Source: Acanthopleura granulata
Lineage: Eukaryota > Mollusca > Polyplacophora > Chitonida > Chitonidae
Length of the DNA stretch: 64,000 nucleotides
Reading direction: 5' to 3'
Assembly: GCA_016165875.1 (NCBI GenBank)
Contig: JABBOT010000005.1
Span: 21,350,520-21,414,519, forward strand
In this document: in pieces, positions 7,497 to 57,330 of the stretch
How positions within the stretch are numbered: the stretch's first letter is position 1
How the letters are laid out: every line of letters begins with the position of its first letter
Notes under the pieces: generated by a model
What the model was told of the DNA's origin: nothing
Seen by the model: only the letters and a program-made list of their open reading frames with translations
Database searches by the model: none
Made by a program: the position numbers and the translations under genes

Positions 7497-7996
7497 TGTA
7501 GGTGTCTTGGACACTGTGACAGACAAGAAGTCTTGTGTGATGTATGGTCAACATGACAGACAATAAGTCTTGTCAAGTGTTTGGATAATACTAGACAAGT
7601 CTTGTCACGTGCCAGGGTAATATAATACATAACAAGTCTTTCAGATGTCTGTTCAATACAACAGACAAAAAGTCTTGTCAGATGTCTGTTCAATACAACA
7701 GACAAAAAGTCTTGTCATGTGTCTGGATGATGTGACAGACAACACGTCGTGCCAGGTGTCTGGATAATGTGACAGACAACAAGTCGTGCCAGGTGTCTGG
7801 ATAATGTGACTGACAACAAGTGATGCCAGGTGTCTGGATAATGTGACGGACAAGAAGTCTTGCCAGGTACCTGGATAATGTGACAGATAACAAGTCTTGC
7901 CAGGTGCTTGGATAATGTGATGGACAATAAGTCTTGCCAAGTGTCTGGAATCTTGTCACACAATAATGCGACACAACGTAAGTCTTGCCAGGTGTG
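7497..7996. repeat. 37-bp minisatellite
   Basis: About 12-13 tandem copies of a 37-base unit containing GTGACAGACAACAAGTC and CCAGGTGTCTGGATAAT. Copies from about 7,720 to 7,950 are regular; those from 7,497 to 7,720 are diverged and of uneven spacing. Minus-strand frames of 95-105 codons run through the array because the unit lacks stops there. They are repeat artefacts, not genes. Confidence 0.9.
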
Positions 7997-15060: not shown

Positions 15061-16200
15061 ACTAATAGTTTGAGGGTTAACGATAGTTACAGAAAGTGTG
15101 GCAAACACATTTCACAGAGTGGGAATATTACATTCCCGAAGAAATCATCTTGAAATTCTAAATATGGTGGGTGTACCACTGGAAACAAAGATAACAGTGT
15201 AATTCATTTATAGTCACAGTTAAATTGTTGAATTCAGTTTGTTGTTGGCAACGAAGCACTTCTCAGTGTCAGGGGCAGAACACTGAACAACCACTTAATA
15301 TTTATTCAAAAAAAGCTACGAAGACCAAGGAAATGATACCAGCTGGCCACCTATTACCTAATACCAAATTTCTCTGTTGTAACAGGCATATGTAAATGTA
15401 GCCATATAGTGCATGGAATATCTTCAAAAGTGACACTGAGACAGTGCAAATGACAACCTGAAGTTATTTCTGTGGGCTAACTCTAGAGACACATGTACTT
15501 GAATCAAGAAAGAATAATTACCTACAGCCTAGAATACCAATCCCTATATACAACGAAAGTACCACATGCACAAGAAGTCAGGAACATAAAACTTCAACAG
15601 GCCAAAATAGCATTAAACCTGATCAATACACCATGGCCAGGACACTTTAATAAAAAAATACTTTTTTTTTCTAAAAACAGTCAACATTCAAAACACTGCA
15701 TCTGGCTGAAAAACCTTTAGGCAGGACCAATGGACCAGAAATGAGACAAAATCGAGAAAAATCACATTAGACCTTTCCACAGTGTGAATCAGGAACATGC
15801 TTGTGACCAATCATAATAAATACCATTGCAAGAATTTCTATCGCATGTCCCACACACTGATTATGAATATGCCTGAAATATCATGTTACAATTGCTTTCA
15901 CTGAGTGTGGAATGAAAAGTAGCATAATAAAGAGGCGTGGTGGGTCATCGGATGTGCTGGATCCATCAATGGCCATGACCTCTGTCAGTTACAATATAAA
16001 AGTGAAAATATAACGTTAAGCCATCTTTCATCAGCTGCATAGTATTGGACGAGGTCACATGGTGCAGAATCTGACTTCAATTTATTTTACAGTGTAGGCA
16101 ATGAACAATTGGTAGACATGGTCAAAAACAAGATGAAAAAACAAACAAACAAACAAATTCCAGGGCTATCCAAACTCCTAATACATGGATTGAAAGGACA
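15061..16200. other. No gene seen
   Basis: AT-rich spacer with an ACAAACAAACAAACAAA run near 16,140. The only open frames are short. Confidence 0.45.
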
Positions 16201-16360
16201 ATGTAACTATATATACACACCTTGGCTGGAACTGACCTCAATGTAACTATATATACACACCTTGGCTGGAACTGACCTCAATGTAACTACATATACACAC
16301 CTTAGCTGGAACTGACCTCAATGTAACTATATATACACACCTTGGCTGGAACTGACCTTA
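16201..16360. repeat. 40-bp tandem repeat, four copies
   Basis: Four head-to-tail 40-base copies (16,201; 16,241; 16,281; 16,321) of a unit beginning ATGTAACTATATATACACAC and containing CTTGGCTGGAACTGACCTCA. Copies differ by one to two bases, so the duplication is recent. On the minus strand each unit contains AAGGTGTGT, a possible donor-like string. Confidence 0.95.
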
Positions 16361-45517: not shown

Positions 45518-45629
45518 CAGGTTTTGAGAGTGTCTAAGCGAATCCTTTGATAGCGTCCTGCAGCCTCTTTCTGGCATCGGTCACGAGTCGCTCCTGTTGT
45601 CTCACATCATCCTCAGACACAACTGTTGC
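45518..45629 (-). CDS. MBD2/3: MBD2/3 last coding exon (coiled coil, stop, UTR start)
   Basis: Acceptor TGCCCTACAG. Encodes residues 223-253, ending KRLQDAIKGFA and TAG at 45,534-45,536. The DDVRQQERLVTDARKRLQDA stretch is the p66-binding coiled coil. The protein has no acidic tail. Sixteen bases after the stop there is a consensus donor (CCTG/GTAAGT at 45,517-45,512), so the 3' UTR is spliced. The stop is too close to that junction to be expected to trigger nonsense-mediated decay. Confidence 0.93.
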
Positions 45630-48600
45630 CTGTAGGGCACACGACATGGGCATTAGAAAATACCCTTTTGAAAGTATCTTTTCATATGTTCGTCTTTTTT
45701 TCACCACGTTAACTTGTTTATTTCATAGTGTTACACCTTAGAATGTGTTTTTAATATCCCAAATATCAGGACTGTCGCTGTATGATGTACAATAACTAAA
45801 ACTGTATTTTTACAAAATCTGTGTTCATTTCACAGCAAATACATGTACATAACAAGCAGATTCAGAGAACTTACATTCCATGCAAATATACAAAAAATTT
45901 AGCTGGTTGACAAACTTCAACCAAGACCACACAAAAATTCATCACAACTGGACAACATTTGGTGCAGTTACAGGATACAGCATAGAAACCAACTACTAAC
46001 AGGGAATCACCGAAGTCTTCAAATGTGTAAAACTTAAGCAGGGTATCGGCTATTTGATCAGAAAATATGATGCATTTGACGGGCAGATAGACCCAAAATA
46101 ATATCATTCACATTTTAAACAGTCAGACTTGTTTAGAGATGTATTATAATTTGACATTTGTCTTACCTGTATATGTGGTTGGTTTGCATCTATATGGACG
46201 CCTGGGTTTTTGTTGATTGAAGATTTAGAAGCACTCTGACCAGTGACGGGCTGATTGTTGATATGAAGGGCTGCTGAGATACTCTGTAAGACACTGTCAG
46301 GGGTCAACTCTGGTCCTATACCTGTACAACAACAACACAATAAGACTACATCTGTACATGTAAATGTATATGATCAGGTGGGTGTGACTCACTGACTCAT
46401 ACACCGAACACACATGTATAAGCACAGCTGAAGTGTAGACTCACCATGAATAGATCGAGAAGAACCAGTGAGAATTTAAATTCTCCTGTGTTATCACTGA
46501 CTCATACACCCAACACTCATATTTATTTATTTATTTATTTAACTGGTGTTTTACACTGTACTCAAGAATATTTGTATGACGGTGGCCAGCCTTATGGTCG
46601 GAGGAACCGGGCAGAGCCCAGGGGAAACCCACAAACAGGTTGCTGGCTGCACGGCCGGAGAGAAAGCCAGTACGAGCTGGACTTGAACTCACAGCAACCG
46701 CATTAAGGAGAGGTCTGGGGACATAACAGCATGCTGGCATGCTAACCTCCTCCGCCACGAACGCCAAACTGAAGTGCTGACTCACCATGAATGGATTCAG
46801 GAAGTTGCTGTGAGAGTAGAGATTCTCCTGTGTTATCACTGACTCATACACTCAACACTGACAGACATAAGCACAACTGAAGTGCTGACTCACCATGAAT
46901 GGATTTAGGAAGTTGCAGTGAGAGTAGAGATTCTCCTGTGTTATCACTGACTCATACACTCAACACCGACAGATATAAGCACAACTGAAGTGCTGACTCA
47001 CCATGAATGGATATAGGAAGTTGCTGTGAGAGTAGAGATTCTCCTGTGTTATCACTGACTCATACACTCAACACTGACAGACATAGGCACAACTGAAGTG
47101 CTGACTCACCATGAATGGATTTAGGAAGTTGCTGTGAGAGTAGAGATTCTCCTGTGTTATCACTGACTCATACACTCGACACTGACAGACATAAGCACAA
47201 CTGAAGTGCTGACTCACCATGAATGGATTTAGGAAGTTGCTGTGAGAGTAGAGATTCTCCTGTGTTATCACTGACTCATACACTCGACACTGACAGACAT
47301 AAGCACAACTGAAGTGCTGACTCACCATGAATGGATTTAGAAAGTTGCTGTGAGAGTAGAGATTCTCCTGTGTTATCACTGACTCATACACTCAACACTG
47401 ACAGATATAAGCACAACTGAATTGCTGACTCACCATGAATGGATACAGGAAGTTGCTGTGAGAGTAGAGATTCTCCTGTGTTATCACTGACTCATACACT
47501 CAACACTGACAGACATTTGCACAACTGAAGTGCTGACTCACCATGAATGGATTTAGGAAGTTGCAGTGAGAGTAGAGATTCTCCTGTGTTATCACTGACT
47601 CATACACTCAACACTGACAGACATTTGCACAACTGAAGTGCTGACTCACCATGAATGGATTTAGGAAGTTGCTGTGAGAGTAGAGATTCTCCTGTGTTAT
47701 CACTGACTCATACACTCAACACTGACAGACATTTGCACAACTGAAGTGCTGACTCACCATGAATGGATTTAGGAAGTTGCAGTGAGAGTAGAGATTCTCC
47801 TGTGTTATCGCTGGCCTTCAAACCTTGTAAACGCTTCTCCCAGAACAGCTGAAACATGCAAACAACCACACCTTTCTTTACCACAATTTATTTATTTGCA
47901 TTTTTCACCATACACTCACATGACAACAGGCATTAGCACAATGATTATCAACAACCCACTAATCATTGATTATGAATCTTTTTGTACACCAGGGGCCTTC
48001 GTGGTTCAGTTGGTTAGCATGTAAGCACGGCGTAATGACTCCAGATGCCTCCCAACAATACGGTCACTGTGCGTTCAAGTCCAGCTCATGCTGGCTTCCT
48101 CTCCAGCCGTACACTGGAAGGTCTGCCAGCAACCTGCGGATGGTCGTGGGTTTCCACCAGGCTCTGCCCGGTTTCCTCCTACGACATGGCCAGAGTTGTA
48201 TAAATGAATTTATTCTTAAGCACAGCGTAAAACCCCAATCAAATAAATAAATCTTGCACATCATGCCAGCTTTCTAACAGTCAGCATTATAACACCCGGC
48301 AGCATTTCTATGGATAACAACTTCTGCTTTATTAGATCACAATGTTTTGATGTACATTCTCACATCAAGGTGAAGCGAGTGTTTAATGTTATTCCTAACC
48401 ATAAAAGCAGAATATTACTCTGCTGAATAATTTTTCTTCTCGCAATTTGCCATAACAGGATACCGGCAGAAGTCTGAAGTGGGACATGTGACGTCGTTTT
48501 AGTGATGCCGAAGATTCTATGCAGCGTCAACAGCGCCACCTCATAGTGAAAAAAACTACACATGTAATAAATGAAAAATGTTTCCAGGCAACACGTTTGA

Positions 48601-51600
48601 CATTGCACAACAAAAGACTTATGACACAGAAGTCCTAATTCAGTGCAGCGATACCTGGCGGGAGATGAAAATCCGCCGGTATCCCATTATGAACCTAAGA
48701 AATATCATTAAAAGTGACAAATCTCCACAAAAAATATTCCAGAGGTTCTTCTTTTTGTCTACATAAGAAGCCCTCTTCCTTGATACATAGAGGCATTAAT
48801 TTCTCATTTTTATGTCTAGTAACTCCACACTTCATTGGTTGAATTATTTCAAGGTCAAGTTGGGAGAGCTTTTGACCTGGACACGTCCTCTTCCCACCTG
48901 TCTGGGTTGGTTCTCCTGTGAACCCTGTTTGAGGTCTGACTTTGTCTTGGACTCAGGACGAGTCCTCACCACAGTAACCGGCTGTTTGAAGATGGAAGCA
49001 GTCTGGCGTATCGGCAGGGCCAACGTCGTGTCATGACAAATCCCTACAAAAAGCACACACACACAGAGCATTGCCATCGGTTAGGACTTCGTTGATATTC
49101 AAGAATGATCAGGATGGAGGTTACATGCATGTAGCTTGGACGATAAAGGCAAAATAAACCATGAAATATGTCACTGCACCCAGAACAAATGGAGTGAAAA
49201 ACATGAATAAACCACATGCACAACCAAAGGGTTTTGAGGAGTATCTATATATGCAAGGTTTTAAAACAGCATAAAACTGTGTATATATATATATATATAT
49301 ATACATGGATGTGCATGCAAACTGACAGAAATGATCATGACGTTGAAAAAAAATACGATAAAAAAAGTATAACATGTTATATACACGTGTAGCTCCTAGC
49401 CAGGTACAGTGGTTCTTTCCAATTATTTTCCCCATCAAGACAGTTCCTACCAGTAATTCTATTTACATAATTATAATAAGCAAAATTGACGATTTCGAGC
49501 AAAATAGTTTTGCGTGTTATAGAAACATTCGTTGTCAATTTGTCACTGGCCGAAGGAAGGAATAAGCTGAATCAGTTTTTTTATGGGGACTGTTTTTATT
49601 CTTTATTATGTGTGACAATATTAGATAAACAGTCCAGTATTATTATTAAAGAGACAAGGAGGAGACAAACTAGCCTGAGTGTTTATCTAAACACACTGCG
49701 AAAAAGCGAAAACATTTTCAAACTGCACGAAACTAACAAAAATGCTGTTTTATTTTTTTATGTATGTCAACTGCATGCCTGTACTCTCGGTGCTTGCTGA
49801 TTTCTACCTGGAATGCAAGTGAGACAATCACAAAATACTAACACCTGTACATAAACTGAATCTAATGCACACAATGAAATTATATCTATTTACAATGCAT
49901 GTAGCGATACATATATATAGTGTGCAAACATGAAATTTTTGGTAAGAAATCTAGATTTGGTAATCATCTGTATGATTTCAAATATTCTCTGTTTACCCAG
50001 AAATTTCCTTTCAGTTGTGAAATTTTGCAAATCTTACACTGTAAAAAGGTTATAAAGTGACCTGCATTATGAGTTCTATGAACGCTACCACTTAACAGTA
50101 ACACGCATGTGACAGGAGATTACTGTGTATGACGTCATATTTCGACCCCATGAGTGTGTATTCAGAGGCAAGTTAATAACGTTACAAAATATTATTTTTG
50201 CTGGCAGAAGTCAGATTTTTCCACTGGGATATCATTCTACCTTCCAAACAAACCTCGAACACCTTTCTAAAACCAACAGAACTTTTGGAATCAGGAAAAA
50301 TGAGCAGCCGAGTTGTGCATGTTGCATGCTGTAAATTTAACTGGATATGCAGAGATCAATTTCTTGCGAAAAAATCTCTGGTACCGGTATAGTCTCTTTT
50401 AACATTAACAGAGATAAAGCCAAAATGAGGCAACACTTGTATAAAAGACAGAATAAATAGAGCACAAAATGCATAAAATAAATGCATACATCAATAAAGG
50501 TTAACAGAAAGTAAGATGCTGCCACCAAATTATATTATTATGTTATATTAAATTGTATTCCACAGAGGGTAGAGATGCCAGTTTCTCAATGAATGGATTC
50601 TTGTTATAATTTTATAATAAACATTTACCTGGGCTGCTCAGCATAAATACATCGTAGAAACATGCATCTCTTTCTTGGTTGTGTCAAAGTATCCAATTTT
50701 ACATTTGGACACATTTTTGACACAGTTAATACTCAATTCCACATATTTTTGAAACAATCTGACATAATCATACTACATCTACTAATAACCACACATGCTA
50801 ATATCGGACAACCAAGATGAACTTCCATGCAAGAATCCTTTCACTGCACATGCAAATTTGGCATCTTTTGCGCAAAAAGCTTCAGGTACAAGTATGGTCT
50901 TTAACCTATTGAGAGGTACAGGAAGGTCTTGAAATTTTTGATGCCAACACTTATGTTTTGTTTTTTTCCTTCACATAAGAAATTAATTAAACACCACTGA
51001 AAAAAAAAAACTAGGTGTTTCAAGGTCAGCGAATCGACAAGAAACAGGCAAAATGTCACTCAAGCAAAAAAGTTAAAATTCAGGTGATATACAGTTCTTG
51101 TAGTTTATTTACATCTGCAAGAAGAGTTTTCTCAAAATATCTCAGAATTTGTAACACAACATTATGGAAAACAGTTGAGACATCATAGCATATACCTGGA
51201 AGTGGGCTAGAGTTTACAAGGAAGACATGGTGGCTCCATAAAGTTTGTCTATCAGTTACACAGGTGGGGAGGAGCAGAGTGTTGAGGTGGTGGGGAGTGA
51301 AGGGAAAGGACAAGGGTGGGGGAATGAGGGGCAGATCAGGGGAGACTAGTCTAGCTAAAAACAGACAAAACACTGTCTTAGGATTCTTCCTCTGCTTGTC
51401 AGCTGGGGATTTATTTATCACCAGCTTCATCAATTAGATGATGAAAAGCTGTACATTGTAATCAACGAAGGCCTAATTTAACGCCAGAAGCCATTTGTGA
51501 TCTTAATTAAATTAATGTATTTGTATTTAGTAGCATCTTATCCGAAAATTTATATAATATAACATGCTCTGTTGACATACATGTAAAACTACATCTAGAG

Positions 51601-54600
51601 CAAATTACCAATAATTTCATGCAATTCTTCCTCAGGCAACTGCCACTACTAGTATGTTGTGCAGACTGCAGTGCACAAGGTTGATTAGATGGTAGAAATC
51701 CAATCCTATTAGATGTGATTTACTGTCAAAAGTTTTCATGATTTTCCCTTCATTTATTATTGGTTTACAGGGCAATTACTTACCCTATGCTTGGTCTACT
51801 GTTTGGCCTCTGAAACTGAACTTTAAACATGTCATAAAAGCCTTTAAATGATACTTTGAAGTTTGAAAGCCAACACTTAACATTTTTCTGATGGGAAATT
51901 ATTCAAATTTCACAAATAGTCTTTAATGACCATGTAAGGTGGATGCATTAATCAGAAGCAAGCAAAATGTGTCACTTGCCAAAAGCAGATTAAACTTCAG
52001 GTGTAATACAAAAGTAGTGGGTTGGTGAAAAATTCCATGAAACTGCAGGCGATTTATTGTACAGTGATTTACTATAAATCTAAATACATCGCAGGTATAA
52101 CTGTAACTGATAGCCAGTTTACATTCCAGTGTTTGCCTTTAGGGCTTGAGAAACGTTCCTGTACAGTGCTTGTGAAAGAAATTTTCAATCACTGCATTCA
52201 ATCACCAGAACCTGTTTCCTAAAATTATCAAGTTGTTCATATACTTATGTGCCGGGTAATTAGAAGATATTCGTTGACTGTCAAACAAAAAAAGGCAAAT
52301 GAAGCATAAAACAGATTGAATTCAGTATTAAAATGTGAATGTGATATTCAAACCAAAACTAACAGAAATCCATGAAATCTGTAAGAAGTGAAACAAAACA
52401 CTCAAAATTCAACTGAAGAAAGTGCTTTGGTAAACAAATTTACCTGAAACATTGGAGGTTTTTCTACCTAGAAACAAAGGTGAAACAGTCAGGGGAGAAA
52501 GCACTGGCAAGACTCCATGCTGAATTATTTCTATATTTTTCCTTGTTTTCTTCTCAAGTACAGTTTTTGGACAGTTATCCCTGACTTAAATATGAAATGT
52601 GCAGTGGTTGAAGTCAAACATGATCTGGCACTGTTCACATGTTACTCAGGGGGTATTTTAGCCACTCTTTCCATGTTAACCACAAGAAACATTGGAAAAT
52701 TGAGTTCATTGAGTTTAAATTTTACACTGAATTTTCATGAAATAAATTGATTTTTTGATACACTGGGGACAAAAAATAGTGAGCCCTGGTTACTTTGTGC
52801 ATTACAGTTTTGACGTTACAGTCTATAAACCAAGGTGAAAATACAAGGTATGGGAGGTAACTCGCACAGGACGCTAAGGCCAGGCATCCTTGATCTGGGA
52901 CATCTGTTCTACTGTTGGAAGTGTACAGCTGTGCCTATTTAATTTAACAAATGACTTGCAAACCACTGAACTGAAGTGATGAATACATTATTGCAATATA
53001 ACCAGCGACTTCTTTATGTAATAGTCCCAACCCTATCTTTTTTCCTCGCCAAAGTCATCAACATAAAAATACACCTTCCACAACAACAGTGACAAGTGAA
53101 ATTTATTTCTGCAAGCTAAGACTGCTTATGTAAGATGCTGTCAGTAAGTATTTGAACCTAAATGACTAAAAGGTTGAGAGTGTATATGCTTTAGTAAGGT
53201 GCTAATACTGATAAAAAGAAAAAAATGTTTTGATACACATATATGAATTTCAAAGATCAGGCCACAAGGGTAGGTTAGCTATTGTTAGCAAGCCTCTATA
53301 AAAACACTGTTCATTCACCAGAACTACACTACAAGCTGAAACCTGCAATGTGCACTGCATTCCCTGACAAATTTTGTCCGATTTGTGCACAACTGGCCGC
53401 ACTCCCAGCAGTATTAGTACACACATGACCCCCAAACACCTCTTCCACCATGCTCACCCCAAAAATGCAAACTGAGTCAAAAGACAAACCTCTGGCGTGA
53501 TCATAAACAGTTCCTCGGTGCCGCTTACTTTTACGCAGAGCGCTGTGAATCGTCTTTCCAGATCGGAAATCGAAGGCGCTCAAGTCCAACACGTCGCCCA
53601 GGTAACGCGACAGCTGGGGCTTGCTCCTGATCTTCTTGCCATCAGGACTAAGAAGGAAAAAAAGAGGAATGCAAAGCTAATTTCTGAATAGTGCAAGTAG
53701 CTTCCCTCCACCAGGTATGAATTGTACAAATTAGGCACCAATAACCATTAGGCGTATTTTAAGATCCATTTGAGTTGTCTTTACTTCATAGACTGCAGCG
53801 CCATTCTCAAATAAATGCTTTCCAAACATTACGATGTGCCATCAATCACATTAGCATAATCATGTTAATTATTACATAAAAACAGTTATAAGTAATATTT
53901 AAAATAATAAGTCACTTAATACCCAAACTGTTTCAATTCCAAGTCATTTCATACCACCGTTATTTCATACCTAAGATATTTATGCATGGTGTGCATGAAG
54001 TCCGGTTTCGAACAACAACTATTTGACTGTGACACTTACATGTACGAAAAGTTAAAATATCCACACTTAAAAATAAGCTGCATGAATAAATATGAGTTGT
54101 ATTATCTCATGTGATGAATTTGCTCAAGGTTGGCCCAAAAGACCGGAACAATAGACTGGACAGGCATAAAGACTGGACTTATGTGTGGGCCAGCCACACA
54201 AAAGTTATCGCAGCATATACACTGTTGCCTGGACATCAACCAAAGTAATAGTCAAAAAGAGCAAAGTCCAGGCTATACAGAAATATATGTTAAATGAAGA
54301 ATTGCTTTATTTTCAGGTCTTTTTCATGAGTAGGACGAACAAAGATCGCGAGAGATATTAATCCTCAAGAGCCACGGTTTCCCAGGTCAGCATTCGTGGT
54401 CGTGTTTTTCTTTCGTGCACTCCAAAGAGTAAGCCCGAAATTTCACTAAATTGTATACATATGGACGGCTTGAAATGTGCTCCACAGTTCGTAAAGAAAG
54501 ACATGAACGAAATTGCAGGAATTTGCCAGGAGTTTTCAGGACCAAATTACAACTTTCAAGGAAAGATTTTAAGTTGCTTTTATTTTTAGGAGTACCTAAT

Positions 54601-56846
54601 TTTTTTCATTACTGGTTTATATTCTTGTTTTATAATGATCCTTGACCCATCCCACCAATGTGGTTGCTATGAGTTCATGCTGGCAGACCTTCCCATGTAC
54701 TGCCAGACAGGAAGCCAGCATGAACTAGACTTGAGCTCACAGCAACCCCATTGTTGGGAGGCTTTGAGACATTGTGCTGCGATAGAGTGCTAACTGACTG
54801 AACCATGGAGGCCCCCCTATCTGCATCTGTATGCGTATTTAATACACTGACAGGTATTGCATAATCTGCATGCAAATCCTGTCAGTACATTAAATGCCCA
54901 TACAAATACTGACCATGTTGGACTAGCCAGCAACCTGCAGATGGTCATGCTTTTCCCCTGGCTCTTTACAGTTTCCTTTCACCACAATAACACCAGTCAA
55001 ATAAATTAATATATAAACATTCTTATTCCACAGGTTCTCTATCTTTAAATTTAATTATTTATAATCTTTATTTTCCATGAGAATATAACTTTTTTATTTA
55101 CATGTTTTCAGTTCTGAATTAATATGTTTGTCTTACTGGAGATGTTACATAAGGCTTCCTTCAAACTGGCTATACTTATCTGATAGAACAAAATAGTGAA
55201 GATTAAGTTACAGCATCTTAATTTGTTTCAAAACAGACTCGAACATATCTCCCTTTATACGCCATTCAAACAGTAATCTATCAATAGGTTTCTTGTCTTC
55301 CTTTTCTTCAGCTAAATAATCAAGAAAATTGTGTTCTTGATAAAATTCTTTATGAATCTACTGTAAAGTGGCACCACTTACTGACGAAGCATAAGAGAGG
55401 GGACAACAACCAGCTCTACAATGTCACTTTGACATAAACCAACTTTGTTTTATACCCTGTTTTGTTTTCAACTGGATAAGTTTAACACTGCAAACTTCCA
55501 CAGACACTGAACTAACAGTCAATCGCACAATTAATTAAGATTCAAGTTGTTTTGAGAGGCTCAACGAATTTAGTCCTTTGGTGATTCCAGAGAAAAAAAA
55601 AGAATGATGCACAGAACAGACATTTCAATCCATAGAAAATGAAAATTTTAAAGGACTTTCCTAGAGTTTTTATTTTTTTCCAGAACTTTCAAATACTTGA
55701 AAATCAAATTTTGTTCTTCCAGGAACTTCAAGGTGTTTCCAGGACAGTGTGAATGCTATGCTCTTTTTACATCTGTTACCACATTAATTTAGTAGTTTCT
55801 GTACTACGGTCACTTATGTGCAGCTGACCCCTCTCCAGTTCAGTCTTTATTCTCGTGTGGTCTGTCATTCCAGTCCTTAGGCCGCAGTGACGACAAGGTT
55901 AGACACTTCACTAAATCAGTTCAAACATGTGACCGTGGCGATATATAACAATTTCATAGTTTGGGGCCAAATCAACATTCAATGAAGAAACTTCCAAACG
56001 AAGTTGGATTTTTCCCAGACAGGTGTGCAACTAAAAAAAAAACAGATGAAAAAAAACAAAAAACAAAAAGAATCCACAGCACACCTCTAGGTCTTGTGAC
56101 TTCTACCCTTTTCCTGATAAATTTGCAGGTTAGCTCTTTACTTTCATACAGCAATTTCCAGAAGTAAACACAAAAACCTTTAAAAAGTAGCTGGCCTATA
56201 AGTCAGATATGAAAGATATGAGATAAGAGTGCGCATGGCCAGGATTCCTTAGCTGGTAGATAAACAAAACCCTTCTTGCTCTGATAAAGCACCGTAAACC
56301 TAGGCAGTCACACACAATTCATCCCAGATTGTTAATTTTACGAGAGTCTGTGTTACATTTGAGGCATAGGCTCTACATGGTTCTTCAAGCGAAAAATGTT
56401 GGGAACAAAATAGAGAGAGAAAAATCATGGCTAAGCTGAATATTCGGCTGCCGCATGGATGGCAAGGGCTTATGTTTATCCGCCATGAGCCGCCTTCTGC
56501 TCACATACAGTTATGCACAACCTCACTACCTGGCTTGGTTCACAGATTATGATTCAACAAAATTTCTGAATTTCATTGTTTCAGGCACCTCTCAGATGGG
56601 TGTGCTGGAAATTTTGAGCACTTTACTATGGGTTTAATGTATATTTTTAATGTGCCATCCATAAGCGTTACTGAAACAACAACAACAATGCACGCAGGGT
56701 GACAGGCTGCTTTCATCGTGGCACACAAACCTGAAATAATACACGTCCGTTTTTCCAGCAGAGAGACCAGATTTTCTTACAACTTCTTCGCGCTTCCATC
56801 CTGAGGGCAACCCTACGCAATCACTACGGCGCTTTTCGGACATCAT
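45534..56846 (-). CDS. MBD2/3: Methyl-CpG-binding domain protein 2/3 (NuRD subunit)
   Basis: Six exons join in phase on the minus strand: 56846-56731, 53647-53490, 49043-48898, 47848-47758, 46321-46167, 45629-45534, giving 253 residues. Human MBD3 has 291, mostly extra acidic tail. Order: MBD (residues ~8-75, with GWKREEVVRKSGLSAGKTDV and SKPQLSRYLG), the conserved LDLSAFDFRSGK, the PIRQTASIFKQPV linker, QLFWEKRLQGL, the PVTGQ...NKNPGV segment, and a C-terminal coiled coil (DDVRQQERLVTDARKRLQDA). In vertebrates these parts bind methylated CpG, recruit the histone deacetylase core and pair with GATAD2/p66. Intron positions look like those of vertebrate MBD2/MBD3. It acts in the nucleus as a repressive chromatin reader. 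One MBD2/3 gene is usual for invertebrates. Introns 3 and 4 carry SINEs, and intron 4 a striking tandem array. Confidence 0.96.
46167..46321 (-). CDS. MBD2/3: MBD2/3 coding exon 5
   Basis: Acceptor TTGTTGTTGTACAG/GT completes the Gly codon. It encodes residues 171-222: IGPELTPDSVLQSISAALHI, PVTGQ, NKNPGV and DANQPHIQ, matching the vertebrate VGPG...LLSAIASALH...PITGQ...EKNPGVW...TQPL landmarks. Donor CAG/GTAAGA. Length is 155 nt. Confidence 0.95.
46445..47757 (-). repeat. 108-bp tandem array of exon-4 end plus intron start
   Basis: Ten extra copies of the exon-4/intron-4 boundary, in the gene's own orientation. The exon-like 42-nt parts lie at 46445-46485 (decayed, 41 nt), 46786-46827, 46894-46935, 47002-47043, 47110-47151, 47218-47259, 47326-47367, 47434-47475, 47542-47583 and 47650-47691; the real exon end is 47758-47799. 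Spacing is exactly 108. Each 42-nt part is preceded by GATAACACAG and followed by GTGAGT, and would insert 14 residues (GESLLSQQLPKSIH or close) in frame. Most copies have CAG (Gln) where exon 4 has CTG (Leu); two copies keep CTG. The acceptor side lacks a good pyrimidine tract, so use as exons is unproven. Confidence 0.97.
46518..46770 (-). mobile_element. SINE family A inserted in the array
   Basis: Reverse orientation. The TTTATTTATTTATTTATTTAACTGGTG tail is at the left, and the head ends near CCTCCGCCACGAACGCC, here diverged. It separates the decayed outer array copy from the nine intact ones, so it inserted after the array formed. Confidence 0.9.
47758..47848 (-). CDS. MBD2/3: MBD2/3 coding exon 4 (source of the tandem array)
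   Basis: Acceptor GCATGTTTCAG. It encodes residues 141-171: LFWEKRLQGLKASDNTGESL, then LSLQLPKSIHG. The donor is CATG/GTGAGT, phase 1. The last 42 bases of this exon, its donor and the next ~66 bases are repeated head-to-tail downstream in the intron. In human MBD2/3 the matching segment belongs to the disordered region that contacts the deacetylase core. Confidence 0.95.
47990..48252 (+). mobile_element. SINE family A, full length, in MBD2/3 intron 3
   Basis: Forward orientation, thus antisense to MBD2/3. Head GGGGCCTTCGTGGTTCAGTTGG, B-box GCGTTCAAGTCCAGC, CTGCCAGCAACCTGCGGATG, CGGTTTCCTCC, and a GCGTAAAACCCCAATCAAAT tail ending AAATAAATC. Confidence 0.9.
48898..49043 (-). CDS. MBD2/3: MBD2/3 coding exon 3
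   Basis: Acceptor TTTTTGTAG/GG. It encodes residues 92-140 with the conserved LALPIRQTASIFKQPVTVVR and ends ENQPRQ at CAG/GTGGGA, a weaker donor than the others. The match to the vertebrate ALPVRQTASIFKQPV and DQPRQ landmarks is close. Length is 146 nt. Confidence 0.95.
53490..53647 (-). CDS. MBD2/3: MBD2/3 coding exon 2 (MBD C-half)
   Basis: Acceptor TTTTTTTCCTTCTTAG, with a strong pyrimidine tract. It encodes residues 39-92, from the second half of the MBD (SPDGKKIRSKPQLSRYLGDV) through LDLSAFDFRSGK to TVYDHAR, and ends one base into a Gly codon at AGAG/GTTTGT. Length is 158 nt. Confidence 0.95.
54655..54818 (-). mobile_element. SINE family A, head half, rearranged
   Basis: Reverse orientation, in MBD2/3 intron 1: CTGGCAGACCTTCCCATG through GAAGCCAGCATGAAC and CTCACAGCAACCCCATTG to the head complement ACCATGGAGGCCCCCC. 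The first ~30 bases (GGTTGCTATGAGTTCATGCTGG) read like a forward-oriented head piece fused at GCTGGCAG. Confidence 0.65.
54926..55018 (+). mobile_element. SINE family A, tail half
   Basis: Forward orientation: GCCAGCAACCTGCAGATGGTC, CCTGGCTCTTTACAGTTTCC, CACCACAATAACACCAGTCAAATAAATTAA. The GTATAAGTGAAATATTC block is deleted. It lies 108 bases from an oppositely oriented head half. Confidence 0.65.
56731..56846 (-). CDS. MBD2/3: MBD2/3 coding exon 1 (start, MBD N-half)
   Basis: Starts at ATGATG (56,846 or 56,843; A at -3 in both) because no in-frame ATG lies upstream. It encodes residues 1-38 and ends ...DVYYF plus AG at the donor AG/GTTTGT (phase 2). Lys32 and Tyr36 match the positions where mammalian MBD3 has His30 and Phe34, the changes that cost mammalian MBD3 its methyl-CpG binding. 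This protein keeps the MBD2-like pair and so probably binds methylated CpG. Confidence 0.95.
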
Positions 56847-57104: not shown

Positions 57105-57146
<42 letters not shown>

Positions 57147-57235
57147 ATGTGTGTGTGTGTGTGTGTGGGTGTGTGTGTGTGTGTGGGTGTGTGGGTGGGT
57201 GTGGGTGTGGGTGTGGGTGTGTGTGTGTGTGTGGA

Positions 57236-57267
<32 letters not shown>

Positions 57268-57276
57268 TGTGTGTGG

Positions 57277-57330
<54 letters not shown>
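57104..57330 (+). repeat. (GT)n microsatellite
   Basis: About 225 bases of GT repeats with scattered GGGT and GGAT interruptions, about 260 bases upstream of the MBD2/3 start codon. Open frames through it on both strands are artefacts of the repeat. Alternating purine-pyrimidine DNA of this length can adopt Z-DNA. Confidence 0.98.

Follow-up and report, generated by a model that had tools for sequence, protein, structure and literature searches.

Tandem repeats that run across exon/intron boundaries, called 'mirages', have been described in amphioxus, first at the Adh locus (as recounted in PMC3087553 and PMC3902484). They are found in Adh3 and in the globin genes BflGb6 and BflGb9 (PMC3087553), in the troponin C gene, and in PGBD5, with repeats of 60 and 108 bp (PMC3902484). 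According to these reports, many mirage units keep their AG/GT signals, inner units evolve in concert with the boundary units excluded, and haplotypes of BflGb6 carry 6 and 3 units of 150-160 bp (PMC3087553); regular splicing seems undisturbed by the repeats (PMC3087553, PMC3902484). A related proposal, due to Rogers and extended in later work, is that introns can be gained by tandem duplication of exon sequence bearing AG/GT (as cited in PMC3087553). Here we describe an array in intron 4 of an MBD2/3 gene of the chiton Acanthopleura granulata, found in a 64,000-nt stretch of contig JABBOT010000005.1 (assembly GCA_016165875.1, positions 21,350,520 to 21,414,519 of the forward strand), hereafter the window, in whose own coordinates all positions are given. 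We consider it quite probable that this array is a minisatellite of the mirage kind, built from the end of exon 4, its donor and the start of intron 4, probably by slippage, and that it is likely neutral, since the first donor is predicted to remain the one used in splicing.

The MBD2/3 gene lies on the minus strand (45534..56846). Its six GT/AG-bounded coding exons (56846-56731, 53647-53490, 49043-48898, 47848-47758, 46321-46167, and 45629-45534), joined conceptually, give an intact and uninterrupted frame of 253 residues, in which the Pfam domains MBD, MBDa, and MBD_C follow one another in that order, all above their cut-offs. This upholds the gene identity and exon structure proposed in the first-pass annotation of the window. 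Among the matches listed, the closest to the product is the MBD2-like isoform X2 of another chiton, Liolophura sinensis (96% identity over the full length), where the residues at the end of exon 4 are the same, SDNTGESLLSLQLPKSIHG.

Tandem Repeats Finder (TRF) reported a single array at 46767-47813, with a period of 108, 9.7 copies, 96% matches, 0% indels, and a score of 1940; the highest score among 20 Markov-simulated windows was 74. On the minus strand, unit alignment resolves it into ten units (46767..47813) in exact 108-bp steps, the first base after ACACAG standing at 47799, 47691, and so on to 46827. Unit 1 is the true boundary, composed of the last 56 nt of exon 4 (47758..47813) and 52 nt of intron 4 beginning with GTGAGT, so that the array units span the exon/intron junction; the repeated part of the exon had previously been put at 42 bases and is in fact 56 nt long. 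The nine intact intronic copies of the exon end (copies 2-10, 46786..47691, minus strand) each carry a 42-nt segment after ACACAG, followed by GTGAGT, and ATG/GTGAGT is present in all ten units. Copy 10 is interrupted after about 61 bases by an element at 46529..46765 (minus strand) with a tRNA-like head and an A-rich tail, which we call SINE-like (short interspersed nuclear element) by its appearance, without a repeat-library search. Beyond this element lies a decayed outer copy (46382..46500, minus strand), which matches copy 9 at 99 of 118 aligned bases and is one base short in its exon-like part. The first-pass annotation had described nine intronic copies and one decayed copy in exact 108-bp steps, with the donor kept in every intact copy; both points agree with TRF and the unit alignment, and GTGAGT survives in the decayed copy as well (at 46444).

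The junctions between units point to how the array began. A presumed duplication breakpoint, CAGCGA, lies in exon 4 at 47808..47813, and its partner, CAGTGA, is found at the unit junctions (47705-47700 between units 1 and 2) and again after the decayed copy at 46394-46389, all on the minus strand. The exon 4 junction at 47813 reads CAGCGA^TAACACAG, the unit junctions read CAGTGA^TAACACAG, and the intron after the decayed copy reads CAGTGA^GTCACACC; in the shared CAGYGA, Y stands for C in the exon and for T in the copies within the intron. These three junction sequences are the outcome expected of a duplication between the exon CAGCGA and the intron CAGTGA, and the unit probably arose by slippage at this microhomology, which would have duplicated the 108-bp stretch across the exon 4/intron 4 boundary. 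The ACACAG that precedes each 42-nt segment is itself exon 4 sequence, and the AG found in every copy therefore needs no explanation in terms of splicing.

The full units differ from each other by 0-7 bases, with the inner copies alike and the outer copy decayed, a pattern also reported for the amphioxus mirages (PMC3087553). Copies 1 and 3 are identical over all 108 bases, and copy 2, which lies between them and differs by a single base, combines an exon part of the CAG type with the intron variant that those two share. The full match between copies 1 and 3 makes the coding end of exon 4 a unit of the repeat, and unit 1, at the other boundary from the decayed copy, is not excluded from homogenization. 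From this distribution of variants, we infer exchange across the donor with the coding exon included, presumably unequal exchange that would mix variants among units. The exon-like and intron-like parts vary to the same extent: the ten variable columns comprise 4 of 42 in the former (ten copies) and 6 of 66 in the latter (copies 1-9; Fisher p = 1.0). Relative to the exon copy there are 11 codon differences of five distinct kinds (seven copies have L to Q; K to V, K to I, K to E, and P to S each occur once), and every one of them is nonsynonymous. We aligned the window protein with 126 listed homologs out of 1,272 matches; at the position of the L-to-Q change, the residue is L, M, F, I, or V in 125 of the 127 rows, T in one, A in one, and Q in none. 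The decayed copy likewise has CTG here, and on these two grounds CTG is taken as the ancestral state. Protein-level selection would then keep CTG (Leu) in the exon, and seven of the nine intronic copies carry CAG.

Splice sites were scored with generic matrices of approximate metazoan frequencies, for which the real acceptors and donors of this gene, five of each, are the only yardstick; two of these donors score low (4.9 and 3.8). The five real acceptors score from 5.0, that of exon 4 itself, to 10.2. At 1.4, the ACACAG acceptors in the intronic copies fall short of every one of these and rank 195 among the 672 AGs of the gene, in keeping with the doubt on acceptor strength already voiced in the first-pass annotation. 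The donors are different in this respect: all eleven, the decayed copy's included, score 10.0, and only 2 of the 808 GTs in the gene score higher. Conceptual translation of exon 4 extended to the second donor reads GESALQLCKCLSVLSV and then stops, exactly as had been predicted for use of a downstream donor without removal of the preceding unit. The 42-nt segment chosen in the first-pass annotation does preserve phase 1 and would add 14 residues, but it is not unique. Of the 9-10 AGs that lie ahead of the donor in copies 2, 3, and 6, three lead into segments that are open and in frame (57, 42, and 39 nt), so that an open segment is unremarkable.

The earlier analysis of acceptors overlooked a different site. 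In seven of the nine intronic copies, the CTG-to-CAG change creates an acceptor-like CTCACAG, TCTCTACTCTCACAG, which scores 8.1 and ranks 14 of the 672 AGs, above the real acceptors of exons 3, 4, and 5 and below those of exons 2 and 6. TAAC lies 25 nt upstream of it, and 22 nt separate it from GTGAGT. The predicted 22-nt microexons, all on the minus strand, are at 47671-47650, 47455-47434, 47347-47326, and 47239-47218 in copies 2, 4, 5, and 6, and at 47131-47110, 47023-47002, and 46807-46786 in copies 7, 8, and 10; the site is missing from copies 3 and 9, which have CTG. In conceptual splicing, inclusion of any of the seven shifts the frame to a stop, as in a poison exon. Five of them stop internally (HATS-stop or HATF-stop), and with the microexons of copies 4 and 8 the stop comes at nt 23 of the 155-nt exon 5. 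Given the CTCACAG site, the likeliest aberrant product would be a frameshifting microexon, not a 14-residue insertion.

The first-pass annotation left three options, namely that the array tunes isoforms, supplies decoy donors, or is neutral, and the evidence favors the last: the in-frame ACACAG scores 1.4, seven copies would place Q where all but two of the 127 aligned rows have L, M, F, I, or V, and variation is as high in the exon-like part as in the intron part. The exon 4 donor would win as the one closest to the acceptor of exon 4, the remaining units would be removed together with the intron, and occasional mis-splicing would yield mostly frameshifted mRNA, not a longer protein. Several points weigh against the neutral reading. 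The seven CAG copies place an acceptor-like site of 8.1, compared with 5.0 for exon 4's own, directly before an equally strong donor, and on these scores it is not evident that they are inert. Even the decayed copy retains GTGAGT, and five kinds of codon change are too few for the lack of synonymous ones to measure selection. A regulatory role is possible but unsupported. In one form, a fraction of transcripts would take up 22-nt microexons through the CAG acceptors, and the resulting frameshift would reduce MBD2/3 output, at a dose set by copy number. Only 13 of the 672 AGs score higher than this site, TAAC lies 25 nt before it and a 10.0 donor 22 nt after it, all seven microexons shift the frame, and the exon copy itself has CTG and lacks the site. 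However, 22 nt is short for exon recognition, two AGs intervene between TAAC and the site, two of the nine copies do not have it, the matrix frequencies are approximate, no constraint is visible in the copies, and the mirages of amphioxus that carry splice signals are reported to be silent (PMC3087553). We regard such a bank of poison exons as unlikely, and its fuller version, a self-expanding bank in which seven intronic copies armed with a strong frameshifting acceptor tune MBD2/3 dosage by their number and the CAG can return to exon 4, as improbable on the present sequence. Were it true, a CAG variant returned to exon 4 would allow the same acceptor to remove 69 nt (23 codons) in frame.

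Inclusion of the 42-nt copies as cassettes, each adding 14 residues to MBD2/3, is far less plausible. The segment is open and preserves the phase, but the in-frame acceptor is outscored by 194 of the 672 AGs and the stronger 8.1 site is out of frame, so that no copy combines a credible acceptor of its own with an open, conserved frame; Q in seven copies also fits poorly with the 125 rows that have other residues there. The unit is absent from the exon 4/5 junction in all 126 aligned homologs, among them two isoforms from the nearest species. Two molluscan homologs have extra residues at this junction (P0025 with 4 and P0118 with 10), but these are unrelated in sequence to the unit and possibly stem from gene-model errors. 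A search with a 379-residue conceptual product holding nine units found no protein with the unit among the best 120 of 827 matches; its best match was again L. sinensis X2 (45% query coverage), and adding the units lowered that match from 544 bits for the plain protein to 524 bits. A repeat-bearing protein was rejected among those 120 matches, which leaves room for weaker ones. Any segment from the array would enter after residue 170, within MBD_C (157-249). This part of MBD2 has been described as wrapped around the interface of the MTA1 dimer (PMC7736783), so that an insertion at this place could matter, were one made, and the first-pass placement of the added residues in the region contacting the deacetylase core stands to that extent. 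However, Arg286 and Leu287 of human MBD2, which are jointly required to bind that core (PMC4381075), align with R146 and L147 here, 24 residues before the insertion point and outside the repeat. It is also very unlikely that the ten downstream GTGAGT sites act as decoys that bind U1 unspliced and slow or regulate the removal of intron 4. Eleven donors of equal score, with only two of the gene's 808 GTs above them, would suit such a function, but donor retention is a consequence of recent copying, and the amphioxus mirages are reported to have no effect on regular splicing (PMC3087553, PMC3902484). Finally, the array is known here from one assembled haplotype and might have been collapsed, expanded, or invented in assembly. 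We find this hardly credible, as up to 7 bases distinguish the units, copies 1 and 3 are the one fully matching pair, and the far end is marked by the SINE-like element and the decayed copy.

Other features of the gene and the window were recorded alongside the array. A second SINE-like element, in opposite orientation, lies in intron 3 (47994-48252) and is identical to the one at 46529-46765 at 187 of 233 aligned bases; the two flank exon 4 and the array, and as an inverted pair they could pair in RNA, favoring exon 4 skipping or circular RNA. As RNA, a single unit folds less stably than shuffled versions of it, 197 of 200 of which are equally stable or more so; a 1019-nt fold was computed without a shuffle control, and we claim no structural role. 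Exon 2 has two donors 39 nt apart (53490-53528), GTAAGC at 53528 (7.6) and GTTTGT after 53490 (3.8). The X2 and X3 isoforms of L. sinensis differ by exactly the 13 residues between them, and these residues are absent from 26 of the 126 aligned homologs, so that this looks like an old alternative donor of MBD2/3. A GT dinucleotide repeat of 224 bp (57107-57330) lies immediately upstream of exon 1. Two further minisatellites occur in the window, a 40-bp unit repeated four times with 96% matches (16199-16358), whose minus-strand units read a donor-like AAG/GTGTGT, and a 37-bp unit in about 12 copies with 78% matches (7500-7949). Reading the open frames of at least 50 residues at both places revealed no clear gene, and we make no claim for either as a genic minisatellite.

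The MBD2/3 array has the mirage features that can be tested on one sequence, except for its homogenized exon-side unit. No mirage-like array outside amphioxus was found in the open-licence literature, judged mostly from listings, and none in MBD2/3 was found in print, judged from a listing; this agrees with the first-pass annotation, but the kind of array is known, and its occurrence in a mollusc may be new. If confirmed, boundary minisatellites would not be peculiar to amphioxus and could arise elsewhere in animals, here in a conserved mollusc chromatin gene. The unusual points are the size of the array, its place in such a gene, a coding exon end that belongs to the repeat itself, and acceptor-like sites arising in the copies. 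The locus also offers a natural test of how the spliceosome chooses among eleven donors of equal predicted strength.

Compared with the amphioxus examples, the array resembles the BflGb6, BflGb9, and Adh3 mirages in having splice signals in many units and inner units that are alike, and it shares with BflGb9 the duplication of a 3' exon boundary. Unlike them, it belongs to a different gene and to a mollusc instead of a cephalochordate, and its exon-side boundary unit has been homogenized (copy 1 equals copy 3). It has ten exact 108-bp units where the BflGb6 haplotypes have fewer and longer ones, and it is known from one haplotype's sequence, whereas BflGb6 mirages come with haplotype and reverse transcription PCR data. 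The PGBD5 and troponin C repeats similarly overlap splice sites, and the 108-bp repeat of PGBD5, in three imperfect copies, was judged splice-neutral; those repeats have fewer, imperfect copies in unrelated genes, and we take the common period of 108 bp as a coincidence. As in intron gain by duplication, an internal duplication supplies ready splice signals and potential new exons or introns, although the MBD2/3 piece spans an existing donor and any use of its copies as new exons or introns is hypothetical. Here a coding exon end lies within a minisatellite made from it, and acceptor-like sites have appeared in the copies, which corresponds to the step proposed for intron gain from mirages (PMC3087553).
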